A stretch of 64,000 nucleotides of DNA from Candidatus Liminaster caballi (GTDB lineage Bacteria > Bacteroidota > Bacteroidia > Bacteroidales > UBA3663), in the NCBI GenBank assembly GCA_018065085.1, contig JAGHUA010000048.1, positions 1-64,000 of the forward strand, read 5' to 3'. This document shows, one piece after another, positions 61,209-64,000 of the stretch; the stretch's first letter is position 1, and every line of letters starts with the position of its first letter. The translations under genes and the position numbers were made by a program. The notes beneath the pieces were generated by a model, which was not told where the DNA came from, searched no databases, and saw only the letters and a program-made list of their open reading frames with translations.

Positions 61209-62558
61209 ATGAACATTACGAAGCAAGTGGTTGACGACGTAAATATCGTCCTCAGCCTTGAGATTGAGAAGGCCGACTATGCATCGGCTGTCGAGAAGGA
61301 GCTCAAAGAGGCTCGCAAGAAGATTCAGATGCCAGGTTTCCGCAAGGGCATGGTGCCTGCTGGCATGGTAAAGAAGATGTATGGCCAGTCAATCACCGTT
61401 GACGAGGTAAATAAGGTTATCAACAACTCTCTCTATAACTACATCGCCGAGAATAAGCTCAACGTGCTTGGCGAGCCAATGATCAATGGCGAGCAGGAGC
61501 CTGTTGACTTTGAGACAGCCGAGAAGTTCACCGTTAAGTTCGACATCGCTATCGCTCCTGAGTTCGCTATCACACTCGACAAGAGCGTCAAGGTTCCATA
61601 CTACACCATCAAGGTCGATGACAAGATGATGGACGAGCAGATCAACGGCATGCGCAACCAGTACGGCGAGACCGTTAAGGTTGATGTCGTAGGTGCTGAC
61701 GACGTTGTTAAGGGTAACATGGCCGAGCTCGACGAGAATGGCGAGATCAAGGAAGGCGGCATCGAGGTAACTGACGCTACCGTTTATCCACGTTACATGC
61801 AGGGCGAGGACGAGAAGAAGAAGTTCGAGGGTGCACAGAAGCTCACATCAGTTGACTTCAACCCAGCTGCTGCCTACAACAACAATCAGTCTGAGATCGC
61901 TTCCCTTCTCCAGAAGAAGCAGGACGAGGTAGCCGGCATCACAGCTAACTTCCGTTTCACCATCACCGAGATCACAAGCCGCGTTGCAGCCGAGATGAAC
62001 GAGGATTTCTTCAAGCTCGTCTATGGTGAGGAGTGCACCACCGAGGAGGCATTCCGCGAGAACGTTAAGAACGGCATTGCTGCTCAGCTTGCTTCTAACA
62101 GCGAGTATAAGTTCAATCTCGATGCTCAGGCAGCATTCAAGGCTCAGGTCGGCACTCTCAAGTTCCCAGAGGAGTCGCTCAAGAAGTGGCTGCTTGCTAA
62201 GGACGAGAACCGCGACGCCCAGAAGCTTGATGAGGATTTCCCACGCATGATGGAGGATCTCACATGGCAGCTCATCGAGGAGAAGATCGTTGCTGAGAAG
62301 GGCATCACACTCTCTGATGACGACATCAAGGCTGAGGCTGCTGCAATGGTACGCGCTCAGATGGCTCAGTACGGCATGAGCAACCTTCCTGAGGAGTACC
62401 TCAAGACCTACGTTGAGAGCATCGTTAAGGACGAGAAGCAGCGTGGTCAGCTCCGTGACAGCGCTATGACCCGCAAGATCATGGCAGTCATCAAGGAATC
62501 TGTCGAGCTCCAGAACAAGGAGATTGGCATCGAGGAATTCCAGGAGATGTTCAAGTAA
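61209..62558 (+). CDS. tig: Trigger factor
   Basis: 449 residues. The ribosome-binding domain carries MPGFRKGMVPAGMVKKMYG (GFRxGxxP signature, about residues 40-58). The middle PPIase-like domain (about 150-245) is weakly conserved, as in other Bacteroidetes. The C-terminal chaperone arms are long helices (about 250-440). It binds nascent chains at the exit tunnel. Codon choice is strongly biased, as for a highly expressed gene. In many relatives clpP and clpX follow; here a terminator and repeat array follow instead. Confidence 0.95.
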   Translation: MNITKQVVDDVNIVLSLEIEKADYASAVEKELKEARKKIQMPGFRKGMVPAGMVKKMYGQSITVDEVNKVINNSLYNYIAENKLNVLGEPMINGEQEPVDFETAEKFTVKFDIAIAPEFAITLDKSVKVPYYTIKVDDKMMDEQINGMRNQYGETVKVDVVGADDVVKGNMAELDENGEIKEGGIEVTDATVYPRYMQGEDEKKKFEGAQKLTSVDFNPAAAYNNNQSEIASLLQKKQDEVAGITANFRFTITEITSRVAAEMNEDFFKLVYGEECTTEEAFRENVKNGIAAQLASNSEYKFNLDAQAAFKAQVGTLKFPEESLKKWLLAKDENRDAQKLDEDFPRMMEDLTWQLIEEKIVAEKGITLSDDDIKAEAAAMVRAQMAQYGMSNLPEEYLKTYVESIVKDEKQRGQLRDSAMTRKIMAVIKESVELQNKEIGIEEFQEMFK

Positions 62559-62701: not shown

Positions 62702-62947
62702 AAAAATCTTTATTTATCATCGCAAGTTTACCAGGAGTGACAAAAAATCTTTATTTATCATCGCAAGTTTACTAGGAGTGACAAAAAATCTTTTTTTATC
62801 ATCGCTGCTCTACCGGGAATGACAAAAAATCTTTTTTTATCATCGCTGCTCTACCTGGAGTGAAAAAAATATTATTTTTATCATCGCAGCTCTACCGGGA
62901 ATGAAAAAAATATTATTTTTATCATCGCTGCTCTACCGGGAGTGATT
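62702..62947 (+). repeat. 41-bp tandem array (six units)
   Basis: Six units of exactly 41 bases (anchors ATCATCGC at 62716, 62757, 62798, 62839, 62880 and 62921). The unit has an AT-rich half (AAAAAATCTTTTTTTATC) and a conserved half (ATCGCTGCTCTACCGGGA). The first two copies differ from the later four (GCAAGTTTAC instead of GCTGCTCTAC), and the AT-rich half changes in the last two. There are no spacers and no reading frame, so this is not CRISPR. Confidence 0.92.
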
Positions 62948-63117: not shown

Positions 63118-63125
63118 TACCTTTG
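63118..63125 (+). promoter_or_regulatory. Possible promoter of the structured RNA
   Basis: TACCTTTG matches TAnnTTTG, but no TTTG lies 20 bases upstream. No coding frame follows for 490 bases; the structured element at 63320 does. Transcription would give an RNA of about 410 nt. Confidence 0.4.
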
Positions 63126-63319
63126 CACTCAAGAGCGCGAAACACGAATTAACATAAAGTCAAACAAAAAAATCCCAACACATTAGTCTTTGCTTTCCTT
63201 CGATAAACTCAGGACAAGCTAATTGACGATACGAAACAGAAATAAATCCACGCCACTGCGATCGTTATGAGAGGTCAGAGAGTGGCAGACATAGAAAAAT
63301 AATGCATTGACTATTATTT

Positions 63320-63535
63320 TGCGTTCACCTGAAAAGCCTCGGAAACTCGTAAGGAAATAAGAACAGCCAAAATGATGGTTGGTATTCTCGGATAGGGGAT
63401 ACTTGTCATCACCTAAAAAAAGTAGTTAATGTCTATTCCGATTAGGTGTAGGCATTTTCTTCGTAAGGTGATGACAGGTTTCCAATCCGAGGCTACCTGG
63501 GTGAACGCACAAGAAGGGTGTCTATACCTTTTTTA
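63320..63535 (+). ncRNA. Candidate structured RNA (nested helices) with terminator
   Basis: Nested helices close a branched fold. P1: 63320-63329 with 63500-63509 (10 bp). P2: 63335-63343 with 63486-63494 (9 bp). Inside are three hairpins: GCCAA/TTGGT (63366-63382), TATTCTC/GGGGATA (63383-63401) and an 11-bp stem 63404-63414 with 63466-63476, which carries a further stem 63428-63435 with 63449-63456. A weak terminator stem with six T follows (63514-63534). No coding frame covers it. The layout (closing helix, two short hairpins, one long hairpin) is reminiscent of retron msr-msd RNA, but no reverse transcriptase is visible. It may also be a riboswitch-like leader or unknown RNA. Confidence 0.55.
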
Positions 63536-63616: not shown

Positions 63617-64000
63617 ATGAGATATTTAGGTAACAAGACATCCTTGTTAAACGAAATCAAAGCAGTCTTGGATAAGCATCATCTACTAATTCCTGGATTA
63701 CGATTCTTTGATGCTTGTTGCGGAACTGGTGTTGTTTCCTATATGTTTAAGGATTTGTATTCAATCATATTGAATGACAACCTTCGCATGGCAACAACAT
63801 TTGCAGCAGGTCATTTGTTTGAAAATAGGTGCAATTTTGAGAGACTTGGCTTCGATCCATTTTACTACTTCAATTCAAATACAGAAACTCTTCAAGGCTT
63901 CTTTTACAACAACTATGCGCCTTCATCAGGAGGACGCATGTATTTTTCTGATTTCAATGCAAGTAGAATTGACTACTTTAGAGCCACAATCGAGACATGG
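63617..64000 (+). CDS. D12-class adenine-specific DNA methyltransferase (partial, runs off the edge)
   Basis: The first 128 codons are in the window; the frame is open to the last base. MRYLGNKTSLL (motif X, SAM binding) and FFDACCGTGVVSYMF (motif I) mark the D12/Dam-type N6-adenine methyltransferase fold; the catalytic DPPY-type motif lies beyond the window. It may be a restriction partner, an orphan phage-type methylase or part of a defence island. It is AT-richer than the core genes to its left. The 81 bases between the structured RNA terminator and the ATG hold no clear promoter. Confidence 0.82.
   Translation, partial: MRYLGNKTSLLNEIKAVLDKHHLLIPGLRFFDACCGTGVVSYMFKDLYSIILNDNLRMATTFAAGHLFENRCNFERLGFDPFYYFNSNTETLQGFFYNNYAPSSGGRMYFSDFNASRIDYFRATIETW

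Follow-up and report, generated by a model that had tools for sequence, protein, structure and literature searches.

The window analysed here, a stretch of 64,000 nucleotides of contig JAGHUA010000048.1 of Candidatus Liminaster caballi, carries on its + strand an RNA element of ~200 bases (about 63304–63534). The region 63320–63535 is situated between the trigger factor gene (61209–62558) and the gene for a D12-class adenine methyltransferase, which starts at position 63617. Beyond the window, the D12 methylase gene is followed by genes for an HNH endonuclease (PF13391), an N6_N4 methylase (PF01555), a DUF418 protein and a Fic protein, the contig ending at 71158. Since an HNH protein and an N6_N4 methylase stand behind the D12 methylase, the operon is a restriction-modification (RM) system.

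The window ORF search found no + strand open reading frame of at least 50 aa over the element, in agreement with the original prediction of a region devoid of coding frames, and no HTH controller gene is present in the window between the RNA and the D12 methylase. The leader extends past the 3′ U-run of the element up to the start codon at 63617. Its candidate promoter lies farther upstream than in relatives, the TAnnTTTG motif of the sister subfamily described below being only a few tens of nucleotides away. In the interval that separates the leader from the trigger factor gene, window positions 62702–62945 are occupied by a tandem array of six 41-base units (AAAAATCTTTTTTTATCATCGCAGCTCTACCAGGAGTGACA, 90% matches).

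Fold of the element and covariation

The predicted folding energy of the segment 63310–63545 is −93.1 kcal/mol, as compared with −54.2 ± 4.5 kcal/mol for 200 dinucleotide shuffles (z = −8.56), none of which did as well. Three nested helices, P1, P2 and P3, of 10, 9 and 12 pairs (the last including one G–U), were found where the original prediction had placed them (Table 1). An arm comparable to P3 is present in single-sequence folds of homologues, P3 not having been counted column by column. The original prediction had overlooked two longer crossing helices, PK1 and PK2, as well as the 3′ U-run and the fact that the leader continues to 63617. The P5 hairpin precedes the start codon in most subfamily members examined, with compensatory differences that are visible by eye. 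A generic terminator scan called no terminator at the tail hairpin of the window, which is weak here.

Table 1. Features of the leader and of the operon in the window
Feature	Position	Strand	Remarks
Candidate leader promoter, Bacteroidetes-type −7 element TACCTTTG	63118–63125	+	Consensus match only; sister members have TAnnTTTG
5′ hairpin GCCACT..AGUGGC	63252–63286	+	From sequence; L047/L063 and sister members likewise have a 5′ hairpin before the element
Linker GACATAGAAAAA	63288–63299	+	Relatives: AACATATTA / GACATATTGAAAA
Best-conserved block GCATTnnCTATTAT	63304–63317	+	95–100% identity per column in 19 homologues, two n excepted
PK1 5′ strand UUGACUAUUAUUUUG	63307–63321	+	15 contiguous pairs (with G–U) to 63368–63382
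P1 5′ strand	63320–63329	+	10 Watson–Crick pairs with 63500–63509
P2 5′ strand, conserved AAA and AAACU flanks	63335–63343	+	9 pairs with 63486–63494
PK1 3′ strand CAAAAUGAUGGUUGG	63368–63382	+	Own-against-swapped test
Small hairpin, PK1–P3 interval	63382–63402	+	Single-sequence fold only
P3 5′ strand (long arm)	about 63401–63413	+	Fold; 12 pairs, one G–U, about 63402–63413 with 63467–63478
P4 hairpin	63428–63456	+	Fold; present in homologue folds; 3′ strand doubles as PK2 5′ strand
PK2 5′ strand (P4 3′ half and beyond)	63444–63462	+	Own-against-swapped test; column count
P3 3′ strand	about 63467–63479	+	Fold
P2 3′ strand, then ACCU	63486–63494	+	Covariation with 63335–63343
P1 3′ strand	63500–63509	+	Covariation with 63320–63329
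Alternative local tail hairpin and U-run, weak terminator-like	63511–63534	+	Similar hairpin in homologues
PK2 3′ strand, tail GAAGGGUGUCUAUACCU	63513–63529	+	Adjoins the U-run; pairs with 63444–63462
P5 hairpin, directly 5′ of start codon	63577–63596	+	UUGAU..AUCAA; relatives GAUUGAUAGU..ACUAUCAAUC
Operon gene 1, double D12-class adenine methyltransferase	63617–64000, to L002:2977	+	PF02086 in two stretches; PADLOC MTase_II

The prediction of a structured RNA upstream of the D12 methyltransferase is supported by the existence of homologues and by their covariation, in particular in P1 and P2, the helices for which such a comparison had been proposed. In an alignment of 19 homologues, which was fitted to a covariance model and hence leans towards that model, 16 of the 18 modelled P1/P2 pairs show at least one compensatory change: 8 of 9 in P1, in which 95.6% of the cells are paired, and 8 of 9 in P2. 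The two helices together contain 76 compensatory cells, against 22.8 ± 4.0 in shuffles, with 94.7% of cells paired, and their covariation score is 0.600, against 0.173 ± 0.023; the signal was lost when the partner strand was slid by one to three columns. With four sequences, 4 of the 9 modelled P1 pairs were already compensatory, and a MAFFT alignment of four sequences gave 8 compensatory cells, a number attained by none of 500 shuffles.

The crossing helices were examined by an own-against-swapped test, in which the strand of each of 20 leaders is confronted either with the partner strand from the same leader or with those taken from the others. Both PK1 and PK2 were better when the strands came from one leader (p = 5e-5 for each, the lowest value that 20,000 permutations allow, in a test that ignores relatedness among the leaders), and three control segment pairs gave p = 0.24, 0.46 and 0.53. 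By column count, 6 of the 17 PK2 pairs are compensatory in seven gapless sequences, which was equalled in 0 of 500 shuffles; in L004 this helix comprises 28 contiguous pairs. A U-run adjoins the PK2 3′ strand in 14 of the 20 leaders, as compared with 13% of control windows, and the local terminator-like tail hairpin is found in 11 of 20 homologues, as compared with 4.7% of random segments.

A conserved fold with at least four covarying helices (P1, P2, PK1 and PK2) is present in cis before RM and envelope genes. Its structure is preserved by compensatory changes and it lies upstream of the genes, on the same strand and at a near-constant distance, as is the case for cis-regulatory leaders; in loci with a clear first gene, the start codon is about 220–333 nt after the start of the core. 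The original prediction had further drawn attention to UCGGA/UCCGA words at 63339, 63388, 63437 and 63486. These are indeed spaced 49 bases apart, but none of the 19 homologues has the set or the spacing. Only the first and the last word fall within a conserved helix (P2), and the 49-base period is due to chance.

Distribution of the RNA family

No Rfam 15 family was matched at or above its gathering threshold (4227 models, with riboswitches, ribozymes and HEARO included), which upholds the earlier view that the element does not correspond to RNase P, tmRNA or SRP RNA; permissive searches of Rfam 15 gave no plausible match either. A search within the genus returned one relative, located before genes for a DpnII-type methylase, the DpnII nuclease and a second methylase. 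When named genomes were searched by pattern, two Bacteroidales records (L047 and L063) with EcoRI-type methylase genes behind the RNA were obtained, as well as six loci where a related leader precedes secreted-protein genes; most of the pattern matches were rejected, the element being absent on inspection. R2, a covariance model built from four RM leaders and restricted to P1 and P2, gave matches in 19 of the 393 Bacteroidales genomes scanned; the weakest of these, at L223, L225, L226 and L227, look like chance, the element being absent from their sequences on inspection. The second-round covariance model R3 found three copies in the genome of the window and one each in 3 of the 14 other genomes of the genus. 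No members were seen in Bacteroidia other than Bacteroidales, which is weak evidence because only six candidates were scored per genome. Searches for carriage of the element by phages or plasmids gave no match, and four pattern matches on viral contigs were rejected, as they had only the first motif in common with it.

The literature search, the scope of which excluded many subscription papers and preprints, returned no description of the element. As no paper found describes it, the RNA is an undescribed Bacteroidales family of a general kind that is already known.

Genes behind the leader

We followed 22 distinct model-found copies (R2 and R3 searches), several of which come from the same genus and are thus not all independent, to their downstream genes. 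Fifteen of these are followed by RM or restriction-like operons, which belong to seven unrelated types: the double D12–HNH–N6_N4 operon of the window, the DpnII system of the same-genus relative, nine EcoRI methylase loci (in most cases followed by a GmrSD-HNH gene), Tsp45I with its methylase, a further methylase–nuclease pair, the DrmD-type III set on contig C35 and a ResIII-HNH/Z1 helicase locus. The other seven are not located before known defence genes, and lead two sulfatases, a GDSL hydrolase, an acyltransferase, an LRR surface protein, an SPFH protein and one unclear gene.

Besides the copy in the window itself, two of these copies belong to the same genome. One (L236, G000:C35:62000-76000) precedes a defence-like locus with genes for a DrmD-like SNF2 helicase, a type III methylase of large size and a type III nuclease; two genes ahead of this set may, from their sequences, encode DUF4325-like and ATPase-like proteins. 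The other (L237, G000:C40:36500-41035) precedes a gene for an SPFH/Band_7 and GYF_2 protein, which has no PADLOC match, and then one for a small membrane protein.

EcoRI-type methylase loci were examined more broadly. The leader is present at 12 of 30, eight of which were identified by R3, one (L266) by R1, the covariance model of the sister leaders, and three (L285, L272 and L274) by reading. Four of the 30 loci (L261, L262, L263 and L269) possess instead an HTH_3 gene of 67–71 aa which ends 4–18 nt before the methylase. Their arrangement is that of a controller protein, and we regard them as candidate controller genes. Leader and HTH_3 gene were never found together (0 of 30 loci), a non-overlap with a chance of ~0.11 by a hypergeometric estimate, the numbers being too small for proof of exclusion. 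At L265 (G285:C14), two long near-perfect hairpins and a U-run, similar to PK1 and PK2, are found ~250 nt before the methylase without P1/P2; this may be a degenerate or a different leader of the same methylase family.

A sister subfamily before envelope genes

Matches to R1 were obtained in 39 of 295 Bacteroidales genomes, with up to nine copies per genome, and the genes behind these sister leaders encode mostly secreted or envelope proteins. The order of parts is TAnnTTTG promoter, 5′ hairpin, GACATATTGAAAA linker, PK1 (up to ~20 pairs), P1, P2, inner hairpin and tail, the start codon being mostly ~75–92 nt after the modelled core. The tail can pair both with the inner hairpin and, as a third helix, with a segment immediately 5′ of the start codon; own-pair ranks are 0.26 for PK1, 0.33 for PK2 and 0.37 for the third helix, as compared with 0.48–0.53 for controls. 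A relationship between the RM-type and sister subfamilies has independent support: of the 10 best matches in 131 kb to R3, a model built without sister members, 9 coincide exactly with sister elements, and the R1 match at L266 precedes an EcoRI-type methylase.

The genes led by the sister elements of L179–L208 include LemA and many that encode lipoproteins or secreted proteins. In many of these leaders the PK1 strand contains a short AUG frame (e.g. AUGCUUAUCUUGUAA), which is absent in others. On the opposite strand, too, the sister element reaches scores of up to 34 bits (reverse strand of L049, L031, L045 and L064), as expected from its near-palindromic plan.

Discussion

The best explanation of these observations, and probably the correct one, is that the element is a cis-acting attenuator or riboswitch-like leader which controls the RM operon. 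From the fold and its covariation, both shown here, we infer a control of read-through or translation by strand exchange. P1/P2 is a closing stem accompanied by conserved unpaired A-rich motifs and by a long P3–P4 arm, crossed by PK1 and PK2; P1, P2 and P3 would constitute a stable scaffold. The 3′ strand of P4 would have two possible partners, the P4 5′ strand and the tail that follows P1; since these two are alike in sequence, they would compete for it. With a U-run at the end of the tail, a hairpin often formed by the tail alone and P5 over the start-codon region, such an exchange would decide how much transcription or translation enters the methylase and nuclease genes. RM enzymes are toxic if out of balance. 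The leader plausibly does by RNA what controller proteins do, namely timing and limiting expression, inasmuch as a small HTH gene may hold the place of the leader in relatives. The position of the sister subfamily before surface-protein genes suggests that the cue is a general cellular signal, not the product of one operon. It is tempting to go further and to consider the element as a riboswitch-class RNA that responds to one cellular or phage-linked signal and serves as a portable cassette for unrelated RM systems and surface-protein genes; this remains a tentative and rather doubtful extension.

The energetics bear on how the exchange might operate. The P1/P2 fold is ~10–35 kcal/mol more stable than any fold that is made to contain PK2 at the expense of the nested pairs, as calculated with simple energy models that cannot represent pseudoknots. 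Given this penalty, PK1 and PK2 may, in terms of these models, be tertiary pseudoknots of one fixed fold instead of alternatives; P1/P2 and PK2 may coexist, or a ligand may be needed for the exchange. An entire replacement of P1/P2 by PK1 plus PK2 was rejected as thermodynamically poor. Leader-peptide attenuation was likewise considered: as judged by eye from the translations, a short frame lies over PK1 in a few members (e.g. L047 and some of the sister subfamily) but is not conserved, and control by ribosome stalling was set aside for this reason.

The stability of P1/P2 as the ground state, on top of which PK1 and PK2 could form, would also suit a fixed leader devoid of sensing, which by its pseudoknotted fold would shield the mRNA 5′ end or recruit or position the ribosome, and would thereby raise or set expression. 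The near-constant distance to the start codon, the location of P5 directly 5′ of it and the large number of unrelated downstream genes are all compatible with such a role. However, the likeness between the tail and the P4 5′ strand, which provides two rivals for one partner, and the enrichment of the U-run are hallmarks of attenuators, and we hold a non-switching leader to be rather unlikely; such complexity is seldom kept for passive leaders. Alternatively, the compact fold, with a terminator-like hairpin and a U-run at its 3′ end, could represent a free-standing small RNA (about 63304–63534) which acts in trans and is merely located upstream of the operon. This is less likely still, since a same-direction gene always stands behind the element within a narrow range of distances and with P5 directly 5′ of its start codon, no separate promoter of the operon is evident, and the presence of up to nine sister copies per genome before different genes fits a cis element better.

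Nested pseudoknots with conserved unpaired A-rich segments also occur in ribozymes, and none of the ribozymes in Rfam matches the element. A self-cleaving or self-splicing ribozyme of a class not known is nevertheless very improbable: the element has the position of a leader, with a U-run and P5, and no insertion or excision boundaries were seen. As for the retron-like plan put forward in the original prediction, a closing helix followed by hairpins does resemble msr-msd superficially, but the reading of the element as a retron ncRNA, or as another RNA serving a reverse transcriptase, is scarcely tenable because no such enzyme is encoded near any copy examined. None is found between position 64000 and the contig end at 71158; the four RVT_1 matches of the genome are on contigs C36, C41, C90 and C21, none of them among the three that bear the RNA; and the Pfam-identified downstream genes at homologous loci include no reverse transcriptase. 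The element further differs from msr-msd in its conserved motifs and in leading RM and surface-protein genes.

The leader shares with riboswitches and attenuators its location in the 5′ leader, the succession of a folded domain, putatively competing helices, U-run and gene, and, in the sister subfamily, the presence of several copies before diverse genes. It is unlike them in having no Rfam match, in its RM targets and in a plan of P1/P2, PK1 and PK2 that we could not assign to a recognised class. Other leader RNAs are known from the same bacteria, such as L13-Bacteroidia (RF03127), one of which is present in L063, but these are unrelated to the element in sequence and target. Reviews of RM control list promoter methylation, methylase repressors, antisense RNA and controller proteins (PMC3874152, PMC12707154). 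Like the controller (C) proteins of type II systems, the leader precedes RM genes, and an HTH_3 gene occupies its place in four EcoRI-methylase loci; it is, however, an RNA with no gene within it. The antisense RNAs of EcoRI and Eco29kI provide a precedent for control of an RM operon at the RNA level (PMC3874152, PMC12707154), but these are reverse transcripts inside genes, whereas the element is a sense leader with a conserved structure common to unrelated RM systems. The word 'riboswitch' does not occur in either text, although hairpins that limit nuclease translation are mentioned (PMC12707154). Control of RM systems by a structured leader has no prior description in the literature searched.

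If the favoured reading of a controlling leader is correct, it would add a further mode of RM control, by a conserved structured leader that at least seven RM or restriction-like systems, unrelated to one another, have in common. It could also explain why the host survives when such systems become established in Bacteroidales. Since the same RNA plan leads envelope genes, identification of the signal would link the phage defence of gut and rumen bacteria with their cell surface. The family is large and portable, and the RNA model may also be used for seeking new defence operons behind the leader. At one locus (L241, G032:C33), the leader precedes genes for a ResIII-HNH helicase–nuclease, an M48 peptidase and a Z1-domain protein, which may represent a restriction-like system that is little known.
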